A DNA stretch of 64,000 bases from a bacterium (GTDB lineage: Bacteria > Bacteroidota > Ignavibacteria > Kapaibacteriales > UBA7675), in NCBI GenBank assembly GCA_030430495.1, contig JAUIKM010000012.1:62001-126000 (forward strand), read 5' to 3'. Below the pieces are notes generated by a model that was not told where the DNA came from, did not search any database, and saw nothing but the letters and a program-made list of their open reading frames with translations. The stretch's first letter is position 1, and each line of letters starts with the position of its first letter. This document shows positions 9,971 through 51,059 of this stretch, piece by piece. Made by a program: the position numbers and the translations under genes.

Positions 9971-10303
9971 GACTTTCTTGTTAATCACCGGGAGGGGAGC
10001 GGTCGGTTCACGTGTTTAAAACTTTTTAAACATCCGTCCCTTGTTCAACAAATGTGAAGCCTCGCCAAAGTCTGCCGGCGGCAGTCCAAGCGATTTGCCA
10101 CGGGCATTTGCACCACAATGCAGAATACGTATTTCTACGGATTGAATAAGAGCTCCGCTTTGGAGAACTTTGTAGCTGATGTTGAAGCATAGGCTTCAGC
10201 TCTCCAGCAAGACCAACGCAATTTGGAAACGTAAGGTCGCGTGGCTCCGCCACAGCGATCAGGGACGGTCTTGCCCCGACTGCACGCTAACTCGGACGCA
10301 CGT
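9971..10303. other. Gene-free stretch carrying the surface-locus promoter
   Basis: Between the terminator and ATG 10304 there is no gene. The notable content is the operator-promoter at 10126-10172 and, just after it, an imperfect hairpin in the predicted leader (TGAAGC, loop ATAG, GCTTCA, about 10183-10198). Two TTTAAA-containing blocks lie near 10014-10030. Confidence 0.6.
10126..10172 (+). promoter_or_regulatory. Dyad operator plus Bacteroidota-type promoter
   Basis: The dyad TACGTATTTCTACGGA (10126-10141) overlaps the -33 TTG (10142-10144). After 20 bp comes GAACTTTG (10165-10172), a 7-of-8 match to TAnnTTTG. The same arrangement, with high identity over about 50 bp, lies at 27345-27392. 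The box ends 132 nt before ATG 10304, against 131 nt in the second copy. A NarL/LuxR-type regulator is the obvious class to bind such a dyad; that is inference. Confidence 0.7.
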
Positions 10304-12034
10304 ATGGATCCAGCTGCCACAATTTCTGCACGCTTTCATGTCGGCAAATTCGGCAGATCGCTGTTGCGAGTGCTTGTTTTCCTGGCGGGGGTGTTGGCTG
10401 TATTGACCGCGGCTCAGGCGCAGAATGCCGGTCTGGGAACGAGCACGCCGGATCCCTCGGCTTTGTTTGAGTTGTCTTCAACAAATTCCGGTTTGTTAAC
10501 GCCCCGCATGACGACGGCGCAGCGCGACGCCATTGTTTTACCCGCGGCTGCTCTGCTGATTTTTAACACGAGCGACAATCGATTCCAGTACAATGCCGGT
10601 ACGCCGGCAGCGCCCGACTGGCGCGACCTCGTCACGCTCGATGTTGTTAATACCGGTTTCTGGTCTTCGAGCGGTAATGCTTCGACCAATCCCGCATCTG
10701 ACTTTGTCGGTACAACCGATGCTCAGCCGCTGGTGCTGCGCACGAACAACAGCGAGCGCGTACGCATCGCCGCCGGCGGCAATGTCGGTATTGGAACAAC
10801 AAATCCTCTGTCCCTGCTGAGCGTGGGACCAAACTCCGCATTTCGCGTGAACGCGTCCGGTCAGATCGAAGCCGCCGCCGGGATTGTCTCCGCAGGCGAC
10901 ATTGATTTCGCGGCACTTAGCGCAGGCGGACTGGTTTCTGCCGCAGTCGGAACGGGCCGTCTGTCCATCGCGCTCGGCGGAACCGACTACGAACTGCCCC
11001 TGACATTTTCCAATGGCCTGCAACGCTCCGTCAATTCCGTCGGTCTGGGCGGCAGCATGACGACGAATACCGTAATTGCAAATGCGGGTTTTAACCTCGT
11101 TGTCAGTGGCTCCGGTCGCATGGGAATAGGTATAGGCAACCCGCAAGTTAAACTCGATGTTGACGGAGCGCTGCGTCTTGGCGGCGCGGCTATGGCCACC
11201 AGCGGCGTCATTCGCTGGAGCGGAACGGATTTTGAAGGACATGACGGTACGCAGTGGCGCTCGTTTACGGGTGGCGGAACCGGTGGCGCCGGTTGGAATT
11301 TAAACGGAAACAGCGCTACTTCCGCGTCCTTCCTGGGAACGATCAACGCGCAGGATCTTCGCCTGCGTGTTAACAATGTGCAACGCCTCCTGATCACGAC
11401 CGCGGGCAACGTGGGTGTCGGTTTAACATCGCCGCAGCAGATGCTGGATGTGGCCGGCGCAATCCGACTGGGCAATACTACCCAGGCCACCGGCGGCAGC
11501 ATTCGGTTTACCGGCGGCGACTTTGAAGGTCACGACGGGTCCGGCTGGATTTCGCTGACCGGCTCCCTTCGCGGATGGTCGGTCACCGGGAACAGTGTTG
11601 ATCCCGGCGACTTCCTCGGCACCACGAACGACCGTGATCTGCCATTTCGCAGCAACAACACCGAATACATGCGCATCACGACGAGCGGCAGCGTTGGTAT
11701 CGGAACAGTTGCTCCGACCGCGCGGCTTGATGTGAATGGTTCAGTTAAGCTCGGAACCCGAGGCAGCACGATCGCCAACGTGATCAAAGTTACCGTCAAT
11801 GCCGATGTAGGCGTACTCGGATCCAACGACTTCCGCACCGAAACCATTACGGTGACCGGTGCGCGCCCCGGCTCGACGGTCTTTGTTTCGCCCTCGGCGC
11901 AACTGCCGGCAGGCGTAATCATCGGGCACGCATTTGTAGACGCGAACAATTCGGTCGAAATCAAGTTTGTTAACATCGGCATCGCGCCCGCCAACCCGGA
12001 TGCCCAGGATTACTATGTGACGGTTATCGAATAG
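10304..12034 (+). CDS. Secreted VGIGT-repeat surface protein
   Basis: 576 residues from ATG 10304. A long signal peptide has a hydrophobic core LLRVLVFLAGVLAVLTAAQA and cleaves near residue 40. The body has four repeats of a module best known from Bacteroidota surface proteins and phage-fibre-like proteins: an NN-x-x-R-x-x-I strand, then G-x-VGIGT-x-x-P, then LDV-x-G-A-x-RLG. The repeat centres are at about residues 160, 271, 368 and 463. Two of them carry FEGHDG-x-x-W inserts. The last 85 residues form a different C-terminal domain and there is no T9SS sorting domain. The start is supported by the promoter-to-ATG distance, which matches that of the 27.5 kb gene; GTG 10241 is an alternative. 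It is likely cotranscribed with the giant gene 67 bp downstream. Confidence 0.8.
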   Translation: MDPAATISARFHVGKFGRSLLRVLVFLAGVLAVLTAAQAQNAGLGTSTPDPSALFELSSTNSGLLTPRMTTAQRDAIVLPAAALLIFNTSDNRFQYNAGTPAAPDWRDLVTLDVVNTGFWSSSGNASTNPASDFVGTTDAQPLVLRTNNSERVRIAAGGNVGIGTTNPLSLLSVGPNSAFRVNASGQIEAAAGIVSAGDIDFAALSAGGLVSAAVGTGRLSIALGGTDYELPLTFSNGLQRSVNSVGLGGSMTTNTVIANAGFNLVVSGSGRMGIGIGNPQVKLDVDGALRLGGAAMATSGVIRWSGTDFEGHDGTQWRSFTGGGTGGAGWNLNGNSATSASFLGTINAQDLRLRVNNVQRLLITTAGNVGVGLTSPQQMLDVAGAIRLGNTTQATGGSIRFTGGDFEGHDGSGWISLTGSLRGWSVTGNSVDPGDFLGTTNDRDLPFRSNNTEYMRITTSGSVGIGTVAPTARLDVNGSVKLGTRGSTIANVIKVTVNADVGVLGSNDFRTETITVTGARPGSTVFVSPSAQLPAGVIIGHAFVDANNSVEIKFVNIGIAPANPDAQDYYVTVIE

Positions 12035-12101
12035 CCCCCAATTGCCTGTACGCCATCTTACACAGTCTGTCTTACTCCCGTACCGGAGACGCCTTTTCAA
12101 C

Positions 12102-15100
12102 ATGTGGAACCAAATATCTCTACATACAACTGGGCCCCGCCTGAGAACACGACGTCACTGGTACTGTGTTAACCTGCTGACTTTAACCCTCTGTCTACTC
12201 CTGGCTCAGCACTCTATGCCGGCTCAGACACCGTTCAGCCTGACCAATGGCGCCGGCCTGACGCTGACGGACGGCGCTTTGTTTACACTGAACGGTTCGC
12301 TGGAAATTGACGCCGCGTCCAATCTCACTCAGCAGGGCGGCGGTACTATCCGCGTTACCGGCGACTGGACAAACTCCGGAATCTTTAATGCCGGCAATGG
12401 CGAAGTAGAATTTCATGGCTCGGTTGCTCAGACAATCGGAGGCAACGCAACTACAACGTTCAACCAACTGCTCATTCTCAAAGATGCGCCCGGCAACCTC
12501 GTTAACATTGATGCCGACTTTACGGTGTCGGGGCCATTTCCAGTTACTACCGGCACGCTTCGGTTTGTTAACAATTCTGCTCGCACCGTCACGGTGCAGG
12601 GCGATCTCAGTATTTCGGCGACAGCTTCGATGGATGTTGCCGTCGCAGGCAATGCGCTCGGCCACCAACTGGATGTTTCCGGCTCTCTCACGAACCTGAA
12701 TATCCTCGACCTTCGCCCCGGCGGTCCCGCAACTGCCGACCTGCGGTTGAGTGGTTCCGGCTCGGTCGCGTTGAGCGGCGCAGGATCCGTTACGCGTTTT
12801 AATCGAATTACCGTCGACAAAAACTCACTTGCCGACGTCGTTGACGTCACTGCCACAGACTTTGATGTTCCCGACAACTGGTTGACAATTGACGGTGGTC
12901 TGTTGCACCTTGCCGGAGCGTTTTCCCTGACGACAGAATTTTTTGTTAATCCCGCCTGGACCATTCCGTCGACAGGTGGTCTGTGGCTTGACAATCCCTC
13001 TGTGACGGCTGAAGGTCAGAATGGCGACGGCACTGTGGCCGGTTTGCTGCGCGTCGGCGATGGTGTGTTTAATGTCGGCGACGGCGCCAATGAAAACAGC
13101 CTGTTTTACGACGATGGAGCGAGGATAGAAATTCTTGGCGGTGAGATTAACGTTGCAGCTCGCTTTTCCGGAACATCCACTTCGGATGAATTGACGTACG
13201 AACAAAGCGGTGGATTTCTGCGGGTTGGAACGGCCGTACGTTCCTCGAACGGCGCGTATGGAATGTTCGACATCAGCTCGGCCGCATCGACCTTTGACTG
13301 GAGCGGCGGTGAAATTGTCCTGCAACGCGTCGTTGACGGCAGCAACGGCCGCGAAGAGTACGTGAATTTCGCCGGCGCCGGCAGTGTCACCGGCGGCGTC
13401 CTGCGCATCGACAATCAGGATCAGAACAACGATCGCTATGACATCCAGAGTGCGGCGGATGTGTACGAACTCGTCATGGAAGCGAATCTGAATCCGCGTG
13501 TGCGCCTGGATCGCAATCTCTCATTGCTGGGCAATTTCACCCTGGCCGGCGGCGGTGGCAACCGACTGATTTTTGCCAATAACGACCTCAGAATCGGCGG
13601 CGATTTTATTAACAACGGCAACAGTGGCAATGCGGTCAATGAGGGCAATTCCTCGCGAATCATTTTCAATGGTTCAGGTGAACAGCTTATCCGCGGCAGC
13701 AATCCGAATCCGACGGAACTTCCGGAAGTCCGGATTAACAAAACCGGTGTTGGCGATGTCAGGCTCCAGACCAACGTTTCAATTCTCGGCGACCTGCGTC
13801 TGTTTTCAAGTCACCATTTGGACATCGACATATACGATCTGAGGATCGGTGAAGGGTATGGCATTTTCAGCGATGCCGGTACGGCCCGTGTTTTTGATGT
13901 CGGCAAGAATGTTTATTCGGCGGCCGGAGTCAATACTGGTACTTTGATCCGTTCCGTCGCACAGGGCGCTTCCACGCCGCTGGACCTGCATTTTCCGCTG
14001 GGCACTCCCGGTGTGTATACGCCGGGGCTGGTGCAGTTCCTCAACGGCGGTGCGAGTTTCGGCGCCAATGCCGAAGTACAGATGCGCGCAGTGACGCAGG
14101 AGCATCCGGCTGTAGAACTCACCAACGTCTCGCTGGATAAATACTGGACGATTACGACCAATGCCGTGACGCTTAACCCGCGCGGCGCCACGGTGCAGTT
14201 TGAGTACAATCAGAGCGAAGTCAACGGCAACGAGGGCAGTTACCTCGTACTCTATTTCTCGCCGTCCTGGCCGCAGCCGGGCGGTTTCTGGCAGATTGAT
14301 CCGGGTCTTTCAGACGACATCGTGCAGTTTAACTTCAAGCTGTTTTACTCGCAGGAAGTTAACGCTTTGGACGGCGACTGGACGGCCGGAGAAGATGATG
14401 CCGGTATTGCGCAGTATTTCAGTCGCATTGATGGTCCCTACGAAAACCCGTCCACTTGGTCGCGTTCTACATTTGGCGGTCCGCCGTCGAGCACAATTCC
14501 GAACAAGTTGTCCGACAAAGTGTTTATCCGCAACCACGCAATCAGCGTCAATGCCGACCCGGCACCTGCTGCGCTGATTGACATTCAGAGCGGATCAACA
14601 ATCACCGTCAACGGGGACTATGCTTTTACGGGCGATACCTTGCGTCTGGCCGACGACGCAGAATTTGTTAACGCCCATTCCGCGGGTTTTGCCCAGGTCG
14701 GTGCGTCCGGTGCAGTGCAGACGACCATTCGCGATCTGAGCGCAGCCGCCGTGTATCGATTTAACGGAACGGCCTCACCGCAATCCACCGGTGACGGGCT
14801 GCCCAGCCCCGTGCAGACAATCATTGTCGACAAAGCTGCGGGCGACACATTGTTGCTCGGCAAGTCCATCGCCATCGGCGACTCGCTGGTAATCGAAAAC
14901 GGCGTATTGGATCTGGGTGCTTTCACCGTGAACGGGAACAGTTCCGGGCGCAGTCTGAAGATGCGCGCCGGCGAGCTCCTCGTGCGCAATACATTCCCGA
15001 CCAACTACAGCGCTCCCACGTTTACACAGGGGCGCGTGACGTTTGGCGGCACGGGAAACCAGACAATTCCCAGCTCGGGTTCCAGCCCGGCTGTGTTGCA

Positions 15101-18100
15101 GTACAACGAACTTGCAATCAGTGGCTCGCGCGGACCTACTGCGGCGATCAGCCTGCGGCCGCAGGGACAGATCAGAATCGGTGCTTCGCTGGACATTTCC
15201 GAGCTGGAGTTTTCCGGCGCGGCCTCGCAGCGGTTTCTCACCGACGGTTCCACCGTTGTCTTTAATGCCGCCGGTGCTCAGTCGATTCCAACGCGGCCGC
15301 TTGCTCCCGCCGACTCCCTTGTGTACCTGAACTACTACAACCTCGTGACTGCGGGCAGTGGCGTTAAGTCGCTTTCCAGCACCGGAGCCTGCACATTTGT
15401 CGTGCTTAACAATCTGGATATTCAGGCCAATACAACGCTTGAGTCGGCCGGTTTTGACCTGGAAGTTCGCGGCGATTGGAACAACAGCGGCGGCGTCTTT
15501 GACGCCGGGACCGATGCCGTCATCTTTCGGTCCGAATCCCTGGGCGAGAACATCAATATCAGATCGCGCAGTACGGTGGACAATGCATTTAATACCGTCC
15601 TGTTTGACGGTTTGGGTGCAATCACGCCACTGGACGATATGGCAATTGAAAATGACCTGCTGATGGGCACCTCGGCCACACTGACTATGACCAGTTCAAC
15701 GCTCAGTCTGGCGGGTGACTGGATCAATACGGGTGGGACGTTTTCGGCCGGCAACTCGCAGGTTGTGTTTAACGGCGCAGCGCTGCAAAAACTGCGGGTT
15801 TCCGGCCACGGGCAGGAATTCTACAATCTGACTATCGACAACGTCGGTGCGGGAATCGATGCGCGCTACGTCGGCGCGGCGACGGATGGCCTTACAATCG
15901 AAAACACCCTGGATCTTACAGGCGGAAATATCGACGTCGGTGAGCGTCACATCTGGACCAAAGGACCAGTTGTGCGAGGCGGCGGCGCTCCCGGTCACGT
16001 CGTCGGAGAATTGCGGAAAACTGTTGGAACAGGGCCGCAATCGATAGAGTACGAAGTCGGCTATGCCGCTGCGTATACGCCTGTGACACTTGATGTTGAC
16101 GGGACAGGTGGAAGTGCAGGTGTGGTTGGCGTTCGCTCGGATACTGTAACGGGATCGTCTTCGCCCGTGAGCACCGGCGTTGCCCCGGCGGGCAATTTGT
16201 TAAACGATTTGCGCCACGTGCGGCGCCAATGGCGGATTTCCGTGCCGTCCGGCGGATCGTTTAGTCTGGGCGCACAGCGCAGCTACACCGCCGAACTTAA
16301 CTTTCTGGCCGGCGATGCGCGCAACGGAGCAGATCCGCTCCTCTACGAATCGCGGCTCTGGAATGGTACGACCTGGACCTTGCCGAATCGATTTGAGAAT
16401 CCGGCCCAGGGTCTGCGCACGGCGACGACCATCGCCTTTGAAGGACTTACAGAGTTCGGCACATTGACAATCGGCGAACCCGACGCCTACAGCTTTTACA
16501 GTCTTGTCGACAACGGCGACTGGACTAGTCCGGGCTCCTGGTCGACTCAGGGTTATGGCGGCGCTCCCGCGTCCATCGTGCCCACAGCCACCGCGCGCAT
16601 TTACATCGGCGACAGTAAAACAATTCGTCTCGACGCTGCGGCAACTGTTAACGGCGAACTGACAATCGACTCATCAGGCGTGTTTAATGCGGACGTCAAT
16701 GTCGTGACCGGCACGGGCGCGTTCAGCATGGACGTGGAGTCGACGCTGATGTGCGGCAACGTCGGTGGATTGCGCGCCGCGGCGGCTTCCGGATCGATCC
16801 AGACTTCCGTGCGCAATTACAATCCGGCATCGCACAATCGCGGGACATTTGTCTACACCGGTGCGCAGGCTTCACAGATCACCGGCGACGGCCTGCCAGG
16901 CACCGTAGCCCGTCTGATCATTCAGAAGGATGCCGCGGATGTCACGCTTGACAACAGCGTTAACGTCACGGATACGTGCCGCCTTGAGAGCGGTGAACTG
17001 GTACTTGGAGCGGCATTAAATCTGCAGGGTGATCTGCGCGCAACAACCAATGCGTCCGTAACGCCGCAGACTTTTACGGTGACGTTCAACGGCAGCACCG
17101 GCCAGAGCATAATCGCTTCGGCATCCAACCTCTCGCTGTTTAACCTGACGGTGAACAAAGCGATCAATACCGGCCTGCTTACGCTCGGCACCAACTCCGC
17201 AATTACCGTTAACGGCAGCCTGCGATTTGAATCGGGGAACCAGGCATACATCGATGCGCGCAGCAATACCGACTGCAATGTCATTGTACCCGGCAGCGTG
17301 GTGCGCGCGGGAATTGGTCACGTGGACGGCAACCTGCAGATGAGTGTCGGCGCCGGCGCCCAGACGGTGTTGTTTCACGTCGGGCAAGAAGAAAATTACG
17401 TGCCTTTTACCTTCAGGCTGGAAGGTTCCGGCGGAACGGCAGGTCTGGTGGGGATACGCAACAACCCCGGGCGGCACACTGCGCTGAATCACTTTGACAC
17501 GCCGATTGATCCCAACCGCTATGTACCGCGTTTCTGGCGTGTTACCACCCCGCAGAATTCAACTTTTGTCCGCGGTAATCGCACGGTGACCGTTACCTGC
17601 CAGATTCTCGATCCGGCGGATGCAGGCCTTATCGATGCGATCGCCTGCAGTGAACTCGGTTTTTATCGCGGCGCGACCGAAGGCTGGCAGTCACTGCGCC
17701 CCAATACGGCCGCTGCGAACTACGCGGCCGGATTCGGCTGCGGCGATACGCGTTTAACACTCGGCAACATCGATTACGACGGCAGCGCCAGTACAATTGT
17801 CGCCAACGACTTCCCGGTCGACACCCTGTTGGGATCGACGCAGGTGTTGACGGACGGCTCGACCTTGCTGGGCGATTTCGTCATCGGCAACCAGAATTCG
17901 ATCGCAATCACGACGTTCTACAGTCGCACGGACGGCGACTGGTGTGATGTCAACACCTGGTCAACCGTCGACCACAACGGCGCACCCGCTTCGCGCCACC
18001 CGAATACTCAGTACGACGTCGTATTCATAGCCGCCAACCACACAGTCTCGATGGATTGTAACATCGGTACTTCGTGGCTGTACGGCGGCGGTGCAATCGA

Positions 18101-21100
18101 GAATGCCTTTTATGGGCCCAATGTGACGGTCAAGAAAACAGGCACGCTGATGCTCGGTCCGTTTGAACTGCGTGGAGCGGCGCTGACGGTGAATAAGGGC
18201 GGCACACTTGGAGTTGGATCGCAGGATGGTATCCGCAGTGGATTTACCGGCAACGGCAATGTGCTGACATATACGCGTGCATTTCTCGATAGTATGAACA
18301 TTGTGTATACCGCCGAGGGATACAATGCGTCGGTTGGCGGGGACTTCAGTTACTGCAGGCCAGGCTGGAATTCAAACACGCATTGGATTTCGCGCGTGCG
18401 CGTACGCGACAACAACAATGTTACGTTTTTTGATAATCAGACCGACAATTTCGGAAACGGCTTGTTTTATTATGCCGACAGCGTCATTACGATGACGGCC
18501 GGGCAGCAGTACGACATGGTGTTTAATCCTGGTACGGGAGGCAGCAAGCGCTGGCGTGTGTGGATCGATTTTGACCGCGATGGATCGTTTGACGACAATT
18601 CGTCGGAGCGGATGGTTGACTTTACCGGTTCCGGTCAGCAGACTTCGCCGGACTTCACTATTCCGGGCGGAGCTCTGCCTGGCGTTGCGCGTATGCGCGT
18701 GCAGATGCGCGACGGCACCAACACTACAGGCCCATGTAACGGCGGTACAGGTGAAGTGGAAGACTATACGGTGCTGATTGTTAACGACGCGACCCAGGTG
18801 ACCCAGCAGACAGGCAATGGATTGCCGGACATCCTGTGGGCTTTTGAAGTCGACGCACAGCGGACAAACCCTGGTACGGTTCAACTGGGCAAGAATATTG
18901 ACGTAGCCGACTCGCTTGTGTTAACGCGCGGAACTCTTGAAATCGGCAGCAACGATATCGACCTCGGCGGCGACTGGGTTAACAACAATTCCACTGCGGC
19001 GCTCAACACCGGAACGGGAGAGGTGACCTGCGTAGGATTTAAACAACAGAAAATTCGCGGCAGTGCCGCGACAACCTTTAACGATTTCAGCCTGAACAAA
19101 GACGAAAACAACCTTGAGTTTGCCACGAGCGCTACCATTGGCGGCACTATGTCTTTCGACGCCGACAACCTTGCTCTCCTTGGCGAAGGTATTGAGCTTA
19201 CTTTTGAGCCTGCGGCGACGCTTAATCCCGGCGCCGGCGCATTCAGTAAAACGCGGATGTTCCGCAGCGATGGATCCACAAGCGCGGGCATCATTCTTAA
19301 ACAGTTTACTGCGGCTGCCGGCGCAAAGTCGTTCCTGTTTCCGGTTGGTATTGACACGGTGTACAATCCGGCCGATCTCAGCATTACCGGAACCTACGGC
19401 GCCTTACCGACGATCGGCGTCCGGCTGCGCGATGGATTGCACCCTCAGCGCTTGCAGGATGACATGTTGAAAAAATTCTGGACGGTGACGACAAGCGACA
19501 TCTCCGCCATTGTTTCCAACTCCCTGCAGTTCGGGTATGAAGATGTCGACGTTACAGGTGATGTCTCGAGTTATCTGCCCGCGTTTTACCGCAGCACCGG
19601 CGAATGGGAAATTAACGTCGGCGACAATCCCAAAGCCACACCTTCACCGGTAGTAGCAAGCGATGCGCCCTTCGTCGATGGCGACTGGAGCGCCGGTGGA
19701 AAACTCGTCTTTTTTACCGGCCGGATTTTTTACAGCCGGCAGACGGGCGACTGGAGCAATCCGGAAAATTGGTCCAATGTCGGGCACGCGGGTATTCCTG
19801 CCTCTTATTATCCATTTGAATTGTACAGCAACGACACCGTGATGGTTGACGGCCACATTATTACCGTGGATCTTGACTCGGTAGCGGTCGACTCCCTGCG
19901 CATCGGCGGATCGTTTAACGGCACGGAGGCCCTGGGTCGCGGGATTGTCCGATTTGGCGCCACACCGGGACAAAAGCATCTTGTTGTCAGCCGAAGTCTT
20001 GATGTTGAGTACGACGGCATTATCGACGGCGACAACTCCGGAGCGCGTTACGACACATTGACGATCACGGGCAATATGCGCAACGTTGCACAGTCCGGCT
20101 CAAGCGCGGGTGTGTACTTAAACAACAGCCCGACCAACAATACGGTCCTGCGTTTTTCCGGCGGGGGCAACAACACGCTCAGCGGAGACGGCGTCTGGGG
20201 CGATGTTGCACGCGTCAGGATGCAGAAATCCAACGGCCTTGCCGATACGCTCATTAACCTGTCGGCGACCTTTTCCGAAGCGACCGGTCGTGCATCGAAT
20301 TATTTCTTCCAGCCGCTTTCCGGTGTGCTGCGCCATGCCACAAGCGGAACCCTGGGCCTCTCCTATGGCAACGTGTCTGTTACGATGTCGCCCAACACCG
20401 CATTTGATATTCAGGATGGGGAAGTAAAAAGCTCCGGAAACCTCATTTCCAACGCAGCCACACACATTCGGTTGCGCGGCGGCGATCTGCGCGTCGGCGA
20501 CGAATTAAACGAGCACTTTCTGTACCGGGCCGGCACAATCGTCCGCGTGGAAGACGGCGAATTTGATATTGCGGGCATCTTTGGTCGATTCAACGCCGGT
20601 TCGACAGTCCAGTACGAACAGTCTTCCGGCGGTACAACGCGCGTGATGCGGCAAGGCAACAGCGACGCGTCCAGAATTGGCTTTGATATGGTTAATTCGG
20701 GTTCGTCGTTCAGCATGAGTGCCGGTCGCATCATTGTTGCCAATGGCACCAGCGGCGCGTCGGCGGACTTTCGGGTCGATGCGGGCAGTGGCAGCGGCAT
20801 GACGGGCGGATTGATTCAGACGGGCGACTCTACGTTTACAAATACCGGCATTGTCAAACTGGCCGGCTCCATGCCGATCTACTCGCTGCATGCCGTGTCC
20901 GGCGGCGTTAAAACGCGGGTTACGGAAGAAACGTTTGTCATCAGCAACGGAGTGGAAGTCGACAACGCACACCGTCTGCAGCTGTACGGCAATACGCTGG
21001 AAGTTGGCGGGGACATTGTTAACTACGGTTTGTTTGATGCTGTCAGCGGCTCAAATCCGTCGGACGCCCGCCTGTTGGTTTTGAACGGAAGTTCCGACCA

Positions 21101-24100
21101 GACGATTTACAACGATGATGCCGGGGGATTGCAAACTTACAACCTGCGATTGTCCAAATCCGGTGGAAACCTCATACTCGGCGGCGGCGCCAACTCCAAT
21201 CTGATTGTGCACAACACGCTGGAATTTGCGGCTGGAAACCAGGCGCTTATTGACGCTCGCAGCAATGCGCGTTATGTTGAGCATTCACCGACAACCAGCA
21301 GCTCGCTGCAATTGATTCGCAATGGCCTTGGTCATGTTGATGGCCGGCTCTATCGTTGGGTAGATGCCGGCGCCAGGATCGTCAACTTTGCGGTCGGCAC
21401 ATCTGCTTCCCTGAGCGCCTATACACCGGCGGTGTTTGAAACTCAGGGCAGCGGGGGAACGGCCGGTCTGGTGGGCGTGATGGCCAACGGCAGCAGTCAC
21501 CCGCACATCTCCACGGCAAGCGTTAAACTCGACAACAATATTCAACGCTACTGGAATGTCACGACTGCCGGGGCGTTTGATCTGGGCGCTTCGCGTACCT
21601 TCCGTTTAACCTTGCAGTTTATCAATCCCGACGACCTGCGCAACAATCCCGAGTTGCTCTTTTTTGAGCAGCATCGCTACACACCTGCCTGCCCGGACCT
21701 GCCTGCACTGTGTCCGTCCGGTGGAAGTTGGGCAACGCTCACAACGCCTGCGCGCACCGATACCACTATGCGTTCTTCCGGCAACACTGAATTCGGCGAT
21801 TTCTTGCTGGCGGAGTTAAACAGCACGACCTTCTACAGTCGTCAGAACGGCAATTGGACCGACCCCGCAACCTGGTCCGTAACTGGTTACACGGGAGCGG
21901 CCGCGCCGCGCATTCCGGATCAATCAACGGACATTGTGCGGATCGGCAACGGAAAACGCGTCAGTCTGCCCGGCTCTATTATCACGCCGACAATTCGTTC
22001 CGTGCTTGTGGAGGTGTTTAACAATCTGCCCGGCGAGCTCTACATTGAGGGCGACCTGGGCACCGTGCGCGGACTGAGTTTTGAACTGCAGGATTCCTGT
22101 ACGCTCGGCATGCATCACCTGCAGGGGATTGCTCCTCTGGGCGACCGCGGCGCAGTACAAACTGATACCCGTATCTTCGGCGTTGGCCGCTACGTGTTTA
22201 ACAGCACGTCCGGCAGTCAGAACACCGGCGATGCCCTTCCGGACAGCGTTGCCGCCATCATCGTTGACAACAACTCCACGCCGTTTAACTCCGTGTTCCT
22301 GTCCTTGCCGACCGGCGCAAATCCCGTCGGCGTGCGCGACACTCTGCTGATTGAGCACGGAACATTCAACTGCGGACGGCGCAGCCTGCATTTGTACGGA
22401 GACATGATTCTGCGCAACAATGGACTGTTTGATCCGCTTGATGCATCAGTTGCCTTCCGCGGTCCGATTGACCGGGATTTGCGCCTGGACAACCACGACG
22501 GCGTGGACTTTTACGACGTCAGCATCGAAGGCGAGGATTTGTTGGTTAAATCCGACTACGTGGCGTCCTCGACTGCGCACGTACATGTCCTTAACACGTT
22601 AACCTTCAGTTCCTCCGGAAACATCCGCGTTCGCGATGCCGACCGCTATGTGGAAGTGCAGGTCCCCGGCAACGTAGTGCGTGTTAACAACTTGGGGCAC
22701 GTTGACGGGAAAATGCGCAAACCGGCAGCGGCGGGGGCCGACAATATTGTCTATGAAATCGGCAATCTGGACGATTACACGCCGGTTGAGCTGCAGTTGG
22801 CGGCCGGCAGCGGCGGTGCGGCCGGTTCGGTCGACGTCATCTCGTATGCACCGGCTCCGGATGAAGAGTGGATCGGCAACCGCCTCGACGCCGACGCCAA
22901 AATCGACAGATACTGGAGCGTCACCGGTGCAACGACTTTTGTTCTGGGCAGCCGCACCGCCAACGTCACACTTGGATTTCCGGCGGCTGAACTCGCGGGC
23001 ATCACAACCTCGAACAGCATTGTCCGCCGTCGCAGTATTCCGGTTGAAACGCCGGAGTGGTCGGATCGGCGCAGGCTGGATTGGAATGTTGGCGCCGCCA
23101 ATGTACGACTGAGTGCCGGGGCGACTCCCTGGCCCGGTCTGGGCGAGTTTTATGTAGGTAAGCGTGCGCAACGCATTTTCTACAGCCGCAGCGACGGTGC
23201 CTGGAACAACTCTACGTCCTGGTCATTTACCGGATTTGCCGGCGCAGCGGTGCCGGCCGGAGTATACCCGAATCACGACTGGCAGCTCGCACCCGGACAG
23301 GAATACGAAGTGCGCGACAGCGTGATCATTGGCGGCGGCCACGAAATATTGTTAAACACCCAGCCTGAGATTGCCTATCTCGAGTTGACGGGCAGTGGCG
23401 TCCTGCGCATCGACGCGGGTTCATTTCTGACGGAAAGCCCCTACGGCACCAGTGCATCAATCGTGCGCGATGATGCGGTTGTTAACATTGCTGCGGCTGC
23501 GGGTATCGAATCCGGAACAAGCGCCGGCATCTGGCGTTTCAGCGATGCCGTACGTGTGTTCGAGCCGCGTGCGGACTACGTCTTCAGCGGTTCATTCGAT
23601 CAGCTGTTTGGTGGTGCGTTTCCCCTTGCGGTTAACGATATTCTGGTGGACACGGACAACAATTCGCGCAATGTCATGCTCAACCGCGACGGCATTGACA
23701 TGAGCGGCGACCTGACAGTTCAAACCGGCCGACTGGTTTTTGACAACAATGACGCTTTTGGCTCTCCCGCAGACCAGGCCCTTTCTGTTAGCGGTAGTCT
23801 TTCGGTTGCCGGTGGAGCGGCGTTTGAGGTAGAAACGAGCGGTACAGGTCCAAGGACACACAGCCTGTCTCTGCGCGGCGATGTTAACATCGACGGCGAA
23901 TGGTTGATGCGTCCCGTGCCGAATAACTCCAATTTTAAAGCCGAAACGATTTTCAGTTCAACAGCAACCCAGAATCTGAGCGGCGTTGGAACGGTGCGTC
24001 TGCATGGCGTTACGCTCGACAAGGGAGCGCCGGGAACACCGGTTGTCAGTTCTGTCGACCTTGGAATCAGCCGCATCGGCAGCGGCGACGCCATCAATTT

Positions 24101-26564
24101 TGTTAACGGCACCTGGGAACAGAGCGCCGGCGCGCTGACAATGGACGACGGCGTTGGACAATCTCGAACTCAGACTATTGCGGCAACAGGGGCGCTGCAC
24201 ATAACGGGATCCGGTTCATATGTCATGGGGCAGGACGGCTCGGGCGCATCCCTTGTGATCGACGGTGGCGAGCTGCTTCTTAACAGCAGCGGAGCGGTTG
24301 AAATTGGCAATTTTGACGGAAATTCGTTGCGCTATACCAACACTGCCGGCAATCGGATCAGAGTGTTAAACGGAACGATGACAGTTGCCGGACGCATCAG
24401 TCCGGAAGTTGCCGTCGACACCTATCAGCTCGACTACTATCAGGCCGGTGGACAGGTAAATGTTGCGACTGTCGGTCATGACAACGCAACGCTCGGTTCA
24501 TTTGACCTGCGCGCCCCCGGCTCATCGTTTGCCATGGCTGCCGGAAAGTTGTTGGTGCGTAATGCAAATGTGAGCAGTGCCGTCGGACGTCCCGCCGATG
24601 TCAATATTCTGGCGTCCACGGTCAACGTAACCGGCGGAACGATTCAGTTCGCAGACGCTTTCTCGGCCGCAGCCCAGGAATTTGATATTGAAGTGAGCAA
24701 CGGCGCGATCTGGAATTTAACGGTCGGCAGCACCAGCGCTGCGTTGCATCCGCTTGTTGCGGCCGGCAACCTCAGAATTCAGGCGGACGTGTTTAATGAC
24801 GGTCGTATAGATTTCACCGAACTGCGAAACGCGGCAGCAGCGCCGGATGCGGTCATGACCTTCCAGGGCGGCGGCGCGGGCAATCAGAACGTTACCGGCG
24901 CAGGTGTGACGGCTTTGCAGCACATGACTATGAATCGCGCTGCGGGCAGCGGCGTCGTGTACCTTGGTCACGACGTCAGCGTAGCCGGCGTTCTGGACCT
25001 GCGAGAAGGTGCCAACTCCAATCAGCAGGTGGTTGAGCTCGGAAGCAATGCAAATCTTACGATCCAGTCTTCGGCCGTTGGCGCAATTACAGACGCGGGG
25101 ACAACCGTCGCGCCATATCGATACGTGCGTACAAGTCTGCTCAGCGGACGACTGCATCGAGCTGTGACGGCGTCCGGTGGCAACTATCTGTTCCCCGTCG
25201 GTTCGTTTGACGGCGGCGTCGACAAATACACGCCGGCGGAGTTTGCTGCTGCGGCCGCCGGAGCCGATGGTTCCATCGGCGTTCGGGTTTCGCCCGGTAG
25301 GAAAGCTGACGGCGGCCACTTACACCTGAGCGGGGGAGCGAGCGACTATATCCGCCGCTACTGGGCGATAGGCGATGTGAGTTCCGGCGTGTCCGGCCAA
25401 TGGACGTTCAACTACCTCGACGGCGTCGACGATATTACCGGTGATGAAAACAATTTTGCGACGATCGCCCGCTGGAATCCGGTTGATGAAGGCGGCAGCG
25501 GGTCGTGGCGTCTGATGTCGGGCGCTTCACTGAATTCCGGAAGCAACATCTTTACGTCACCGGCCGGTCTGGCGGCATCTGAGTTTGAAGGTGACTGGAC
25601 CCTTGGCGATGTCGGAGCATTCAGGCGAATTTTCTACAGTCTGACGTCCGGATTGTGGAATCTCAGCTCTACGTGGACGTTTGATCCATCGCACCTTGGC
25701 GCTCCGGTTAGTCCGGGACTGTTCCCCGACAATCCACAGGACAGCATTGTAATCGGCGGCGGGACCGCAGGGACAGGCAACCACGTCGTGTTGCTGGATG
25801 CGGATCGCACGATCGGCGGGATGACGGTCGGAACATCACCGTCAAATACCGGAACGCTGGATCTGGCCGACCAGTCAATCTCCGGTGAGTGGTTTCAAAC
25901 GACGACCGGATCGACTATCAGAATCGGGTCTCCACAGGGTATTGTGGCGGCGCCGGTCAGCAGCGGCAACGTCAGAACTGCAAACAGGCTGTTCTCAACG
26001 GAAGCCGGCTATGTATACAGTGGCACGACCAATCAGGTGTTGGGCGACGGTCTTCCGGCGACGATGGCGAGCTTCAGCGTCGAGAACAGTGGTGCGACCG
26101 GCAACAACGTGGTAACCCTTGACCGCGACCTCAATGTGACCGAGGCAATGCGACTTATCTCCGGTGTGCTCGATGCAGTCACCTTCGGTGTAAGCAATGC
26201 GGGCGGCGGGGAAGCTGTAATGACGAGCAACACCCTGCTTAGAATCGGTGGATCGGCCGACTTCTCAACTGCTTTGCCTGGATTTGCACACTACCGGATA
26301 GACATTCACAACACGGTCGAATATTACGGCATCAACCAGAGCGTCACGGCTCCGCCCAACGGTTCGGACGGCTACGGCAACGTCAATATCAACCTCAACG
26401 GCACCAAGACTGTAGCACTGCCTGTTCGCGCCCGCGGGGATTTGCGCGTGCAAAACGGCGCAATATTGCATATTTTACCCGGCGTCAATGCTTTTGAAGT
26501 ATTCGGAGCAGTCAGCAATGATGCGACGATACTCAATGAGGGTCGATTGAAGATCGGCTCATAG
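12102..26564 (+). CDS. Giant secreted repeat protein (about 4820 residues)
   Basis: A signal peptide (hydrophobic VNLLTLTLCLLLA) leads into a protein built from about seven long units. Each has beta-strand-rich parallel-helix-like stretches (NLTI/VTFNG-type repeats), a GHVDG-x-L...F-x-VG...YTP...GGTAGLVGV module (near residues 617, 1297, 1737, 2397, 3077, 3530, 4347), a YW-x-VTT module, and a FYSR-x-DG-x-W-x-x-P-x-TWS module (near 770, 1463, 1940, 2542, 3243, 3692, 4510). A GEVED-type domain sits once, about 2095-2228, ending GEVEDYT. There is no type A T9SS sorting domain; the protein ends on a strand ILNEGRLKIGS. The ATG at 12102 has GGAG 13 nt upstream; TTG 12042 is an alternative. Both smaller relatives lie downstream. 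A giant adhesin or matrix scaffold is likely by analogy. Confidence 0.85.
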   Translation: MWNQISLHTTGPRLRTRRHWYCVNLLTLTLCLLLAQHSMPAQTPFSLTNGAGLTLTDGALFTLNGSLEIDAASNLTQQGGGTIRVTGDWTNSGIFNAGNGEVEFHGSVAQTIGGNATTTFNQLLILKDAPGNLVNIDADFTVSGPFPVTTGTLRFVNNSARTVTVQGDLSISATASMDVAVAGNALGHQLDVSGSLTNLNILDLRPGGPATADLRLSGSGSVALSGAGSVTRFNRITVDKNSLADVVDVTATDFDVPDNWLTIDGGLLHLAGAFSLTTEFFVNPAWTIPSTGGLWLDNPSVTAEGQNGDGTVAGLLRVGDGVFNVGDGANENSLFYDDGARIEILGGEINVAARFSGTSTSDELTYEQSGGFLRVGTAVRSSNGAYGMFDISSAASTFDWSGGEIVLQRVVDGSNGREEYVNFAGAGSVTGGVLRIDNQDQNNDRYDIQSAADVYELVMEANLNPRVRLDRNLSLLGNFTLAGGGGNRLIFANNDLRIGGDFINNGNSGNAVNEGNSSRIIFNGSGEQLIRGSNPNPTELPEVRINKTGVGDVRLQTNVSILGDLRLFSSHHLDIDIYDLRIGEGYGIFSDAGTARVFDVGKNVYSAAGVNTGTLIRSVAQGASTPLDLHFPLGTPGVYTPGLVQFLNGGASFGANAEVQMRAVTQEHPAVELTNVSLDKYWTITTNAVTLNPRGATVQFEYNQSEVNGNEGSYLVLYFSPSWPQPGGFWQIDPGLSDDIVQFNFKLFYSQEVNALDGDWTAGEDDAGIAQYFSRIDGPYENPSTWSRSTFGGPPSSTIPNKLSDKVFIRNHAISVNADPAPAALIDIQSGSTITVNGDYAFTGDTLRLADDAEFVNAHSAGFAQVGASGAVQTTIRDLSAAAVYRFNGTASPQSTGDGLPSPVQTIIVDKAAGDTLLLGKSIAIGDSLVIENGVLDLGAFTVNGNSSGRSLKMRAGELLVRNTFPTNYSAPTFTQGRVTFGGTGNQTIPSSGSSPAVLQYNELAISGSRGPTAAISLRPQGQIRIGASLDISELEFSGAASQRFLTDGSTVVFNAAGAQSIPTRPLAPADSLVYLNYYNLVTAGSGVKSLSSTGACTFVVLNNLDIQANTTLESAGFDLEVRGDWNNSGGVFDAGTDAVIFRSESLGENINIRSRSTVDNAFNTVLFDGLGAITPLDDMAIENDLLMGTSATLTMTSSTLSLAGDWINTGGTFSAGNSQVVFNGAALQKLRVSGHGQEFYNLTIDNVGAGIDARYVGAATDGLTIENTLDLTGGNIDVGERHIWTKGPVVRGGGAPGHVVGELRKTVGTGPQSIEYEVGYAAAYTPVTLDVDGTGGSAGVVGVRSDTVTGSSSPVSTGVAPAGNLLNDLRHVRRQWRISVPSGGSFSLGAQRSYTAELNFLAGDARNGADPLLYESRLWNGTTWTLPNRFENPAQGLRTATTIAFEGLTEFGTLTIGEPDAYSFYSLVDNGDWTSPGSWSTQGYGGAPASIVPTATARIYIGDSKTIRLDAAATVNGELTIDSSGVFNADVNVVTGTGAFSMDVESTLMCGNVGGLRAAAASGSIQTSVRNYNPASHNRGTFVYTGAQASQITGDGLPGTVARLIIQKDAADVTLDNSVNVTDTCRLESGELVLGAALNLQGDLRATTNASVTPQTFTVTFNGSTGQSIIASASNLSLFNLTVNKAINTGLLTLGTNSAITVNGSLRFESGNQAYIDARSNTDCNVIVPGSVVRAGIGHVDGNLQMSVGAGAQTVLFHVGQEENYVPFTFRLEGSGGTAGLVGIRNNPGRHTALNHFDTPIDPNRYVPRFWRVTTPQNSTFVRGNRTVTVTCQILDPADAGLIDAIACSELGFYRGATEGWQSLRPNTAAANYAAGFGCGDTRLTLGNIDYDGSASTIVANDFPVDTLLGSTQVLTDGSTLLGDFVIGNQNSIAITTFYSRTDGDWCDVNTWSTVDHNGAPASRHPNTQYDVVFIAANHTVSMDCNIGTSWLYGGGAIENAFYGPNVTVKKTGTLMLGPFELRGAALTVNKGGTLGVGSQDGIRSGFTGNGNVLTYTRAFLDSMNIVYTAEGYNASVGGDFSYCRPGWNSNTHWISRVRVRDNNNVTFFDNQTDNFGNGLFYYADSVITMTAGQQYDMVFNPGTGGSKRWRVWIDFDRDGSFDDNSSERMVDFTGSGQQTSPDFTIPGGALPGVARMRVQMRDGTNTTGPCNGGTGEVEDYTVLIVNDATQVTQQTGNGLPDILWAFEVDAQRTNPGTVQLGKNIDVADSLVLTRGTLEIGSNDIDLGGDWVNNNSTAALNTGTGEVTCVGFKQQKIRGSAATTFNDFSLNKDENNLEFATSATIGGTMSFDADNLALLGEGIELTFEPAATLNPGAGAFSKTRMFRSDGSTSAGIILKQFTAAAGAKSFLFPVGIDTVYNPADLSITGTYGALPTIGVRLRDGLHPQRLQDDMLKKFWTVTTSDISAIVSNSLQFGYEDVDVTGDVSSYLPAFYRSTGEWEINVGDNPKATPSPVVASDAPFVDGDWSAGGKLVFFTGRIFYSRQTGDWSNPENWSNVGHAGIPASYYPFELYSNDTVMVDGHIITVDLDSVAVDSLRIGGSFNGTEALGRGIVRFGATPGQKHLVVSRSLDVEYDGIIDGDNSGARYDTLTITGNMRNVAQSGSSAGVYLNNSPTNNTVLRFSGGGNNTLSGDGVWGDVARVRMQKSNGLADTLINLSATFSEATGRASNYFFQPLSGVLRHATSGTLGLSYGNVSVTMSPNTAFDIQDGEVKSSGNLISNAATHIRLRGGDLRVGDELNEHFLYRAGTIVRVEDGEFDIAGIFGRFNAGSTVQYEQSSGGTTRVMRQGNSDASRIGFDMVNSGSSFSMSAGRIIVANGTSGASADFRVDAGSGSGMTGGLIQTGDSTFTNTGIVKLAGSMPIYSLHAVSGGVKTRVTEETFVISNGVEVDNAHRLQLYGNTLEVGGDIVNYGLFDAVSGSNPSDARLLVLNGSSDQTIYNDDAGGLQTYNLRLSKSGGNLILGGGANSNLIVHNTLEFAAGNQALIDARSNARYVEHSPTTSSSLQLIRNGLGHVDGRLYRWVDAGARIVNFAVGTSASLSAYTPAVFETQGSGGTAGLVGVMANGSSHPHISTASVKLDNNIQRYWNVTTAGAFDLGASRTFRLTLQFINPDDLRNNPELLFFEQHRYTPACPDLPALCPSGGSWATLTTPARTDTTMRSSGNTEFGDFLLAELNSTTFYSRQNGNWTDPATWSVTGYTGAAAPRIPDQSTDIVRIGNGKRVSLPGSIITPTIRSVLVEVFNNLPGELYIEGDLGTVRGLSFELQDSCTLGMHHLQGIAPLGDRGAVQTDTRIFGVGRYVFNSTSGSQNTGDALPDSVAAIIVDNNSTPFNSVFLSLPTGANPVGVRDTLLIEHGTFNCGRRSLHLYGDMILRNNGLFDPLDASVAFRGPIDRDLRLDNHDGVDFYDVSIEGEDLLVKSDYVASSTAHVHVLNTLTFSSSGNIRVRDADRYVEVQVPGNVVRVNNLGHVDGKMRKPAAAGADNIVYEIGNLDDYTPVELQLAAGSGGAAGSVDVISYAPAPDEEWIGNRLDADAKIDRYWSVTGATTFVLGSRTANVTLGFPAAELAGITTSNSIVRRRSIPVETPEWSDRRRLDWNVGAANVRLSAGATPWPGLGEFYVGKRAQRIFYSRSDGAWNNSTSWSFTGFAGAAVPAGVYPNHDWQLAPGQEYEVRDSVIIGGGHEILLNTQPEIAYLELTGSGVLRIDAGSFLTESPYGTSASIVRDDAVVNIAAAAGIESGTSAGIWRFSDAVRVFEPRADYVFSGSFDQLFGGAFPLAVNDILVDTDNNSRNVMLNRDGIDMSGDLTVQTGRLVFDNNDAFGSPADQALSVSGSLSVAGGAAFEVETSGTGPRTHSLSLRGDVNIDGEWLMRPVPNNSNFKAETIFSSTATQNLSGVGTVRLHGVTLDKGAPGTPVVSSVDLGISRIGSGDAINFVNGTWEQSAGALTMDDGVGQSRTQTIAATGALHITGSGSYVMGQDGSGASLVIDGGELLLNSSGAVEIGNFDGNSLRYTNTAGNRIRVLNGTMTVAGRISPEVAVDTYQLDYYQAGGQVNVATVGHDNATLGSFDLRAPGSSFAMAAGKLLVRNANVSSAVGRPADVNILASTVNVTGGTIQFADAFSAAAQEFDIEVSNGAIWNLTVGSTSAALHPLVAAGNLRIQADVFNDGRIDFTELRNAAAAPDAVMTFQGGGAGNQNVTGAGVTALQHMTMNRAAGSGVVYLGHDVSVAGVLDLREGANSNQQVVELGSNANLTIQSSAVGAITDAGTTVAPYRYVRTSLLSGRLHRAVTASGGNYLFPVGSFDGGVDKYTPAEFAAAAAGADGSIGVRVSPGRKADGGHLHLSGGASDYIRRYWAIGDVSSGVSGQWTFNYLDGVDDITGDENNFATIARWNPVDEGGSGSWRLMSGASLNSGSNIFTSPAGLAASEFEGDWTLGDVGAFRRIFYSLTSGLWNLSSTWTFDPSHLGAPVSPGLFPDNPQDSIVIGGGTAGTGNHVVLLDADRTIGGMTVGTSPSNTGTLDLADQSISGEWFQTTTGSTIRIGSPQGIVAAPVSSGNVRTANRLFSTEAGYVYSGTTNQVLGDGLPATMASFSVENSGATGNNVVTLDRDLNVTEAMRLISGVLDAVTFGVSNAGGGEAVMTSNTLLRIGGSADFSTALPGFAHYRIDIHNTVEYYGINQSVTAPPNGSDGYGNVNINLNGTKTVALPVRARGDLRVQNGAILHILPGVNAFEVFGAVSNDATILNEGRLKIGS

Positions 26565-26627
26565 CGAGCGCTTTTTGCCCAGGGAAAACGGCAGCCGCAC
26601 CTTGTTCCACTCCTTTCACCTACGACC

Positions 26628-27269
26628 ATGCGCATAGTCATCGCTGATGATCACGAGGTATTTCGGCTCGGATTGAAAACCCTGCTGAAGTCTGAAAAGG
26701 ACATTGAGATAGTCGGAGAAGCGCCCGATGGCAACAATGCAGTCCGGCTCGTCAAGGAACTGCACCCGGACGCGGCGCTGATCGACATTCTGATGCCGGA
26801 AAAAACCGGAATTGAAGCCGTATTGGAGTTGAAGGAATACGACAAGAGCATTCGAATCATCATGTTGACGTCGCTGGAGGACAAATTTCACCTGTCCAAG
26901 GCCATGTCCGCCGGGGCGAACGGATACTTGTCAAAAGAAGTTGGCCGTCAGGAATTGATTGATGCACTGCACGCCGTGGTGCGTGGTCAGCGCGTTTTCA
27001 GCTCTTCAATTTTGAAGATAATGGCCAATCCCAACGAAGTTCCCTACTTCAGCGACGAGTTCAGCATTGCCAATGTCAATATATACCTGTCCGACCGCGA
27101 ACAGGAAATTCTGAAGCTGATATCAAAGGGTTTGACCAGCAAGGAAATTGCGGAAGAGCTGTTCATCAGCCCGCGTACGGTCGAGGCCCATCGCACCAAC
27201 CTCATGCAAAAGCTGCAGATCAAGAATATCGCCGGATTGATCAGATTTGCACTACTGAACCTGCCCTGA
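26628..27269 (+). CDS. NarL/LuxR-family response regulator 1
   Basis: 213 residues: a receiver domain with acidic pair D7/D8, phosphoacceptor D53 (ALIDILMP) and the conserved Lys near 103 (GYLSKEV), then a LuxR-type helix-turn-helix (about 150-205, LSDREQEILKLISKGLTSKEIAEEL). Such proteins bind DNA as dimers at dyads after phosphorylation. No histidine kinase is encoded in the window. The gene starts 63 nt after the giant gene, with no terminator seen between, and ends 75 nt before a dyad-promoter that matches the one upstream of the giant's operon. Control of both promoters, including its own operon, is a reasonable inference. Confidence 0.92.
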   Translation: MRIVIADDHEVFRLGLKTLLKSEKDIEIVGEAPDGNNAVRLVKELHPDAALIDILMPEKTGIEAVLELKEYDKSIRIIMLTSLEDKFHLSKAMSAGANGYLSKEVGRQELIDALHAVVRGQRVFSSSILKIMANPNEVPYFSDEFSIANVNIYLSDREQEILKLISKGLTSKEIAEELFISPRTVEAHRTNLMQKLQIKNIAGLIRFALLNLP

Positions 27270-27344
27270 CGCTTACGTTTTCGTCACTTCTGATCTAATG
27301 GCACGAATAATCAGTCGTTCCTGCTTGGCTCTCCGTCCTTAAAA

Positions 27345-27392
27345 TACGTAGTTCTACGGATTGAACTGAAGCTTGCTTTGGGGCTATGTTTG
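27345..27392 (+). promoter_or_regulatory. Dyad operator plus Bacteroidota-type promoter, copy 2
   Basis: The dyad TACGTAGTTCTACGGA (27345-27360) abuts TTG (27361-27363). After 21 bp comes TATGTTTG (27385-27392), a perfect TAnnTTTG box. It matches the site at 10126-10172 through the dyad, the following ATTGAA, a GCTTTGG block and TTTGTAGC. The box ends 131 nt before ATG 27523. Confidence 0.75.
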
Positions 27393-35257: not shown

Positions 35258-35902
35258 ATGCACACAGCACTGGTAGCAGACGACCATCAGATTCTTCGCA
35301 GCGGCCTGAAACTCTTCCTGACATATAGTATGGACATGGAAGTCACCGAGGCTCAAAATGGGGAAGAAGCGCTTGCGCAGATAGCAAAGCGGGATTTTGA
35401 CATCGTACTGCTTGATCTTTCCATGCCGGGGCGTGCGGGGCTCGACCTCTTGAAAAGTCTGCGCAGCGCAAAATCTGACATGCCCATTCTGATATTAAGC
35501 GCCCAGCCGGAAGAGCGCTATGCTGTTCGGGCACTCAAAGCCGGCGCCAGTGGTTACGTGGACAAGTCGGCCGACACAATTGAGTTAATGACGGCTATTC
35601 GCAAGTGCCTGGCCGGAGGACGTTATGTAAGCCCATCTTTGGCGGAAAAGCTGATCGAGGATGCCGCCAGGGAATCCGAGGATCTGGCCGCGCACGAAAC
35701 GCTGTCTGACCGCGAGTTTCAGATCTTGTGCCAGATCGGTTCCGGCAAATCTGTCGGTGGCATCGCGAAGGAACTGCACCTGTCGGTAAAAACGATCAGC
35801 ACGTACCGCAAGCGCATTCTGGAGAAGATGAAACTCGCCACCAACTCCGAGTTGATGCAGTACGCTCTGAAGCATCGGCTGCTTGAGAAGGTAACCGACT
35901 AG
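35258..35902 (+). CDS. NarL/LuxR-family response regulator 2
   Basis: 214 residues: receiver domain with D8/D9, phosphoacceptor D53 (VLLDLSMP) and Lys in GYVDKSAD, then a LuxR-type helix-turn-helix (about 147-205, LSDREFQILCQIGSGKSVGGIAKEL). It is only distantly similar to regulator 1. It is transcribed alone, with its own promoter and a terminator 38 nt after the stop. It lies between the OmpA-type gene and the first of four T9SS paralogs, but no sensor kinase is nearby. Which signal it reads, and whether it controls the paralogs, cannot be told from the sequence. Confidence 0.92.
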   Translation: MHTALVADDHQILRSGLKLFLTYSMDMEVTEAQNGEEALAQIAKRDFDIVLLDLSMPGRAGLDLLKSLRSAKSDMPILILSAQPEERYAVRALKAGASGYVDKSADTIELMTAIRKCLAGGRYVSPSLAEKLIEDAARESEDLAAHETLSDREFQILCQIGSGKSVGGIAKELHLSVKTISTYRKRILEKMKLATNSELMQYALKHRLLEKVTD

Positions 35903-36177: not shown

Positions 36178-36253
36178 ACCTGCAGAGCGACGATATCTGT
36201 AAATCTGTGTGAATAAACATTGTTTCTTTATCCTGCACCTTTTGGAGCATTCT
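36178..36253 (+). repeat. P1-type leader, shared with P4
   Basis: From ACCTGCAGAGCG to TTTGGAG and the start codon, this 76-nt leader is repeated with few changes before P4 (51546-51619). It includes the RBS GGAG (36244-36247). The match shows that P1 and P4 were duplicated together with their leaders. Confidence 0.8.
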
Positions 36254-40762: not shown

Positions 40763-40792
40763 TTCACCTCCGTTCTACGGTAAATAGATAAG

Positions 40793-40824
40793 AAAACCCC
40801 CGAGCAGCAATGTTCGGGGGTTTT
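40793..40824 (+). terminator. Terminator after P1
   Basis: AAAACCCCCGA (40793-40803) pairs with TCGGGGGTTTT (40814-40824) around a 10-nt loop. The P4 gene has a close copy of this terminator. Confidence 0.9.
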
Positions 40825-40935
40825 CGATTTTAAACGCGTTTGCACACGATCTAATTACGTTCCTAACGCCGGCTTTGATTGTATTTATGCGCAAGACGGC
40901 TGAACGAGTAATCAGTCAATTGTATCTGCATCAGC

Positions 40936-40962
40936 TGTAACCTCAGCAGCTTATACGTGTTG
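40936..40962 (+). promoter_or_regulatory. Conserved upstream element of P2 (ECF-like promoter)
   Basis: TGTAACC, 14 bp, CGTGTTG; same internal spacing as the P1, P3 and P4-upstream copies. It starts 304 nt before GTG 41240. Confidence 0.6.
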
Positions 40963-41239
40963 ACCACTGACCCGACGCAGCCCCTCTCGTTTGCCCCCCA
41001 CCTTGATAGACAGCCTTCTCGATTGTTGTTGAGTGTTCAACAAACAACGGCCCTTTTGTCGCGAAACCGCAAGATTAACAGCGAAATGCAATTCAAATAT
41101 ACGTGCGCATCGGGCCGCCAGGCGTATGTTAACAGAATTGCAGCTTGCCGGACAGAGGCAGGCTGAGCCGTAGCACAAAGCTGCTGCATGCAGATCACTT
41201 CAAGACCGACTGACCAAAACACATAAGAAGGAAAACTGT

Positions 41240-45757: not shown

Positions 45758-45792
45758 GCGTTGGATTGCCGTGCTGAAGGTCGCTGAATGAA

Positions 45793-45833
45793 GTCCCCGA
45801 TGTGAGAAATTCGGGGACCTCCTTTGCTTTTTG
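45793..45833 (+). terminator. Terminator after P2
   Basis: GTCCCCGA (45793-45800) pairs with TCGGGGAC (45811-45818) around a 10-nt loop. CTCCTTTGCTTTTTG follows. Confidence 0.85.
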
Positions 45834-45942
45834 TCTGTCAACCGGTCCAAACAAACATGTAGTCCCCCGCACGCCAGATTGGCGCAGTTCTGCGGGGCAA
45901 TCTGCTTAAGTGCAACAAATTCAGCCACACGGGCAAACAAGC

Positions 45943-45969
45943 TGTAACCACAATCCCGCCCCGGTGTTC
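45943..45969 (+). promoter_or_regulatory. Conserved upstream element of P3 (ECF-like promoter)
   Basis: TGTAACC, 14 bp, GGTGTTC, followed by a block CCGTACCAT that is shared with the orphan leader at 51061. It starts 304 nt before ATG 46247. Confidence 0.6.
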
Positions 45970-46246
45970 CGTCGCCGTACCATACATTCCGATACTGAAA
46001 AGCCGCTTGCCCAAAACCGGCTGTTAAACAGTTGCGCGGATTAACTGGTTGCCATTGAATCGCAGTGCAGACGCCCGTTCGACTGCTTCAATGATGCAGC
46101 TACAGCCGCCGGTCCCACATTCAGATCGTTTAAACCGGACGTCAAGCCGTCCGTCCCGCTGGTTTGCAACGGCAATTTGTCGCAGTGTCCTGCCGTTGTG
46201 TTGACCGCATTGTTCACCGAAAATGTTAACAGCTACGGAGGCTGGG

Positions 46247-50731: not shown

Positions 50732-50761
50732 ACATCATCTCAAATGCAACACTCGCGCACA

Positions 50762-50802: not shown

Positions 50803-50814
50803 AAAGCCGGTGCG

Positions 50815-51022: not shown

Positions 51023-51059
51023 AACAGCAGCGCAGCGTTGGAAGCCTTTTGTCGCGTAT

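Follow-up and report, generated by a model that had tools for sequence, protein, structure and literature searches.

The window, that is, the whole stretch of 64,000 nucleotides that we analysed, carries on its plus strand several genes for exported proteins and, among them, a gene for a response regulator (RR). The first gene (10304..12034) encodes an exported protein of 576 aa with the N-terminal sequence AQNAGLGTSTPDPSA, which is tail-fibre-like according to PHROGs; we call it the family-A protein. It is followed by the gene for a giant exported protein of 4,840 aa (12042..26564), which contains a GEVED domain and gives a sub-threshold match to G8. The next gene (26628..27269) encodes a LuxR/NarL-type RR, identified with Pfam and through its orthologues. 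The coordinate steps within this unit are 8 and 64, and the RR gene is the last in it. Further downstream lies the gene for the family-B exported surface protein of 760 aa (27523..29805). The RR consists of a receiver domain (PF00072, E 5.6e-27) and a C-terminal GerE domain (PF00196, E 1.5e-22). Its recognition helix SPRTVEAHRTNLMQKL occupies residues 181-196, and the phosphoacceptor is likely to be D53 in the motif LIDILMP. It stays below the NCBIfam cut-offs for named regulators; the best scores were 156.9 against a cut-off of 300 for MctR, 142.5 against 250 for NarL, and 89.6 against 255 for FixJ. No linked kinase was found beside the RR gene in relatives. The genes immediately 5' of it in relatives from families f4 and f2 encode NAD synthase, an aminotransferase and a SpoU methylase; a kinase is hinted at only in L246, where a sub-threshold match to HisKA lies 1.6 kb past the site. 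The window also contains a second LuxR-type RR gene (35258-35902), whose product is 30% identical to the first. It lies just 5' of several genes for proteins of about 1,500 aa: four large open reading frames follow one another at 36209-56125 (1517, 1505, 1502 and 1505 aa), and the first of them gives weak matches to FlgD_ig and to a type IX secretion sorting tail.

Two similar sites precede the genes of the family-A and family-B proteins. Site A has the layout TACGTATTTCTACGGA - TTG - N20 - GAACTTTG (10126-10172, plus strand). Its operator is a 7-2-7 dyad, TACGTAT-TT-CTACGGA (10126..10141), and its core promoter (10142..10172) is made up of the TTG at 10142-10144 and a degenerate -7 box at 10165-10172. 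Site B, on the same strand, has the layout TACGTAGTTCTACGGA - TTG - N21 - TATGTTTG (27345-27392), with the dyad TACGTAG-TT-CTACGGA (27345..27360) and a core promoter (27361..27392) in which the TTG occupies 27361-27363 and the -7 box 27385-27392. The preliminary description, made from the letters of the window, had placed a shared dyad, a TTG and, 20-21 bp further on, a -7 box at both sites, and all of these are present at those positions. The distances it gave were also correct: the -7 box ends 132 nt (site A) and 131 nt (site B) before the ATG codons at 10304 and 27523, and the RR gene ends 75 nt 5' of site B. It had described the TTG as overlapping the dyad; at both sites the TTG in fact abuts it. 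The further blocks that it listed as shared, GCTTTGG and TTTGTAGC, are indeed shared by sites A and B; relatives do not have them, apart from TTTGTAG at one site (L097). Because relatives do not keep them, these blocks are probably not essential, and we rejected them as functional elements. Outside a core of about 50 bp, the upstream regions of sites A and B do not align. Therefore, we also rejected a recent duplication of the promoter. No other dyad in the window comes closer than 2 mismatches, and the number of gapped composites expected in the window by chance is 0.00.

The best relatives of the RR belong to 'Candidatus Kapaibacterium' (75% identity), to a metagenome-assembled genome (64%) and to Ignavibacteria UBA7675 (58%). 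By search labels, the window genome falls with the Kapaibacterium genome in one family, Kapaibacteriaceae (Bacteroidota), and for that reason a promoter of the -33/-7 type is expected. The consensus for the primary sigma factor of Bacteroidota is a -7 box TAnnTTTG with TTTG or TTG near -33 (PMC7366714). Site B, with TATGTTTG and a TTG 21 bp upstream, agrees with this consensus; site A, with GAACTTTG, agrees only partly. Scanning of the site-B region for sigma-70 promoters and terminators gave nothing above chance.

We then compared the locus across the order. In all three of the nearest RR orthologues, the dyad, the TTG and the -7 box are found between the RR gene and the next gene. The composite was present within 460 nt downstream of the RR gene, with at most 2 mismatches, at 18 of 57 RR loci in the order; the controls gave 0.0 for shuffles, 0 for the upstream side and 1 for the reverse strand. 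With a relaxed half-site, the number of RR-adjacent loci rose to 28, in six families of the order. The genes that follow these 28 sites mostly encode an exported protein starting with NVGIGTxxPDxSA or a family-B protein. RR orthologues of families f3 and f10 have no adjoining site. At three loci of family f5 (L201, L275, L285), an RR gene with a QN helix is followed by the operator and then by a further RR gene, which looks like a duplication of the module.

The whole twin arrangement, that is, site A, the family-A gene, a giant of about 4,830 aa, the RR gene, site B and the gene for surface protein B, recurs in two other genera. Both G198 and G294 (identical with genome G347) carry, 17-18 kb 5' of the RR site and in the same orientation, a further site at the place of site A; in G294 this further site has one mismatch. 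The giants of these genomes (4,820 or 4,832 aa) are encoded between the family-A protein and the RR. The giants of the window and of the two genera share 48-56% identity over about 4,800 aa, and the B proteins 40-60%. The -7 box of site A is degenerate and GAAnTTTG-like in all three genera (GAACTTTG, GAAATTGG and GAAGTTTG). In 123 genomes of the order, the dyad with TTG, TACGTANNNNTACGKATTG, occurs 45 times versus 1 for the reversed control. These sites lie mostly 5' of genes for homologues of the same surface proteins, often directly 3' of an RR gene. Homologues of the family-A protein stand behind the same operator in families f2, f4, f8 and f9, and homologues of the family-B protein in f1, f5, f8 and f9. 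In rearranged genomes, too, the gene 3' of the site belongs to family A (f2, f4, f8) or family B (f5, f8), or encodes a partial homologue of the giant (f8). As exceptions, the next gene is flgC-like or a further RR gene, and a few sites have no -7 box; in the flgC-like case (L258, genome G311), the operator and TTG lie 63 bp 5' of a gene for a FlgC-like flagellar rod protein. The full composite was found 0 times in the genomes of the class that were searched outside the order.

In the LuxR-type family, residues of the recognition helix are known determinants of specificity (PMC3246441). It turned out that the dipeptide formed by residues 186-187 (numbering of the window RR) tracks bases 2-3 of the half-site across the 28 loci next to an RR gene. 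With an ET, EA or DT helix, the half-site is TACGTA (bases AC) at 17 of 17 loci. An ES helix goes with TAAGTA (AA) at 4 of 5 loci, a QS helix with TAGGTA (AG) at 3 of 3, and a QN helix with TGAGTA (GA) at 2 loci and TAAGTA (AA) at 1. Permutations, which ignore shared ancestry, gave p <5e-5 overall and 0.0008 within family f5 alone. Sister genomes of f5 differ in both helix and site (ET with TACGTA in G164 versus ES with TAAGTA in G288), and another f5 genome, G312, combines an EA helix with TACGTA. A search for TAAGTA-type sites found two 5' of family-B genes, in genomes of the ES class (G160 and G236); its other matches lie 5' of unrelated genes. Sites away from an RR gene fit less cleanly: G311, G319 and G315 have TACGTA sites, and the helix of their best RR is ES or QS. 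As judged from these comparisons, the specificity pattern is unusually clear, within the already known type of a LuxR-type RR with a 7-2-7 operator.

Thus, we consider it likely that sites A and B are operators and core promoters of one regulon of exported-fibre genes, which is activated by the RR encoded at 26628-27269 and includes the RR's own operon. The preliminary description had guessed from the sequence that this regulator is linked to both promoters. The link is very probably real, because relatives keep the module of regulator, site and surface gene, and the site changes in step with the helix. The proposed surface regulon run by a NarL-type regulator is supported by the 28 RR-adjacent loci in six families and by the twin arrangement in two further genera, but across the order it is wider than the two promoters first suggested. 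The RR, presumably as a phosphorylated dimer, would use its recognition helix to read the 7-2-7 dyad TACGTAG-TT-CTACGKA, with residues E186-A187 corresponding to bases 2-3 of the half-site. With TAnnTTTG placed at about -11 to -4, the dyad would extend from about -51 to -36 and have its centre near -43.5. The RR bound directly 5' of the -33 element could then produce class-II activation of a Bacteroidota-type promoter. Site A would drive a 17-kb operon for the fibre-like protein, the giant and, last, the RR, and site B would drive the family-B surface protein. Because the RR gene closes the site-A unit, positive feedback of the RR on its own operon is likely. We infer binding, phosphorylation, activation over repression, co-transcription and feedback alike from the comparison of sequences. 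Several f5 promoters keep the dyad and the -7 box and have no TTG. This missing element and the poor -7 box of site A are both what one would expect if core elements were replaced in function by an activator.

The RR could also bind the same dyads as a repressor that blocks RNA polymerase at -33 and is released by a signal. As the dyad directly adjoins the -33 TTG, a bound protein could cover this element, and NarL itself acts as a repressor at some promoters (PMC4549865). However, a repressor would be expected to act on strong core elements, and the -7 box of site A is degenerate in three genera; moreover, many f5 promoters have the dyad and yet are without TTG. We regard repression as unlikely. 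It is even less probable that the site is read by another regulator, such as a paralogous LuxR-type RR (for example, that at 35258-35902) or an ECF sigma factor, and that the adjacent RR is a mere neighbour. The genome does encode several LuxR-type RRs, helices of this type are generally similar, and some of the TACGTA sites belong to genomes with a different helix in the best RR. Against this, the site adjoins the RR gene in six families and covaries with residues of the RR helix, whereas the loci of the seven other best LuxR-domain relatives in the genome contain no dyad closer than 3 mismatches. As for a sigma factor, the perfect symmetry of the dyad suits a dimer instead.

Activation by the adjacent RR thus remains our preferred reading, and a conserved surface-fibre regulon of Kapaibacterium-like Bacteroidota is well supported by these sequence data. 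Giant exported fibre proteins from an uncultured order of bacteria are thereby linked to a regulator, an operator and a set of genes, and a guess based on two short sites in a single genome proved checkable by comparative genomics. The covariation also offers a code of protein-DNA specificity for LuxR-type RRs, for which residue swaps give a direct test. Our literature search found no work on Kapaibacteria with type IX secretion and no regulatory work for this order. In Bacteroidota, type IX secretion is regulated by the two-component proteins PorX/PorY with SigP, and PorX is a REC-PglZ protein that works with an ECF sigma factor. By description, the window system would be similar in that secreted surface proteins are under two-component control; in contrast to PorX, the window RR binds DNA, as predicted, with a GerE domain and at an operator of its own. 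The operator of Escherichia coli NarL consists of inverted heptamers with a 2-bp gap (7-2-7, 16 bp), as in the engineered narG site TACCCCTAAAGGGGTA (PMC4549865). The window RR shares with NarL the REC-GerE architecture, and its predicted operators have the 7-2-7 geometry and the outer TAC...GTA seen in that site. Here, however, the heptamer is TACGTAG, a single site abuts the -33 element of a Bacteroidota-type promoter, the predicted targets are exported surface proteins, and there is no linked kinase of the NarX/NarQ type. For FixJ of Sinorhizobium meliloti, also a LuxR-type RR, SELEX gave the half-site GTAMGTAG (PMC4999443), which covers the two main half-sites found here, TACGTAG and TAAGTAG. 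FixJ, by contrast, acts on fixK and nifA in the control of nitrogen fixation at low oxygen, and the window RR reaches only 90 bits with the FixJ family model versus the cut-off of 255.

Finally, we assessed how often the dyad occurs in the 5.6-Mb genome. Exact matches to TACGTAnTTCTACGGA are 2, sites A and B only. The sequence TACGTAGTTYTACGTA, one base off the dyad, has some tens of copies elsewhere, and TACGTANTTYTACGKA is found without mismatch at 22 places, the two window sites included. Most near-dyads form the end of a dispersed hairpin repeat, in which TGAGCTGTGAGCCCTnAGGGCTCACAGCTCA is followed by the palindrome. The repeat has 45 copies of AGCTGTGAGCCCTnAGGGCTCACAGCT with at most 3 mismatches (for example, around position 1501 in L003-L031) and, among six genomes, is present in this one alone, with 0 copies in the five relatives searched. 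Its dyads have no TTG and no -7 box and therefore do not represent additional promoters like sites A and B. Many dyads 5' of unrelated genes, which the preliminary description had named as a refutation of its own proposal, are thus present in a superficial sense only. About 30 sampled hairpin copies end in the near-identical, operator-like palindrome TACGTAGTTYTACGTA, and sites A and B might on this ground be degraded repeat copies of no regulatory meaning; this is scarcely credible and already largely refuted, as the window sites have ordered promoter elements and no hairpin, and promoter-type sites are conserved in all five relatives without the repeat. We can also imagine, with little confidence, that the repeat has spread some 30 near-perfect operator copies that, by titrating the regulator, set the threshold for a surface-fibre switch, while regulator and operators co-evolve across the order by a readable code in which residues 186-187 set bases 2-3. 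A third exact dyad-TTG site lies elsewhere in the genome (G000:C73:123126-123144, minus strand; L242), about 190 bp 5' of a gene for a 55-aa peptide. Its membership in the regulon is opposed by a poor -7 box and by a better promoter, TTG-N20-TAATTTAG, nearer to the peptide gene. The next gene encodes a 729-aa protein resembling a C39-peptidase ABC transporter, so that this may be a peptide-export locus.
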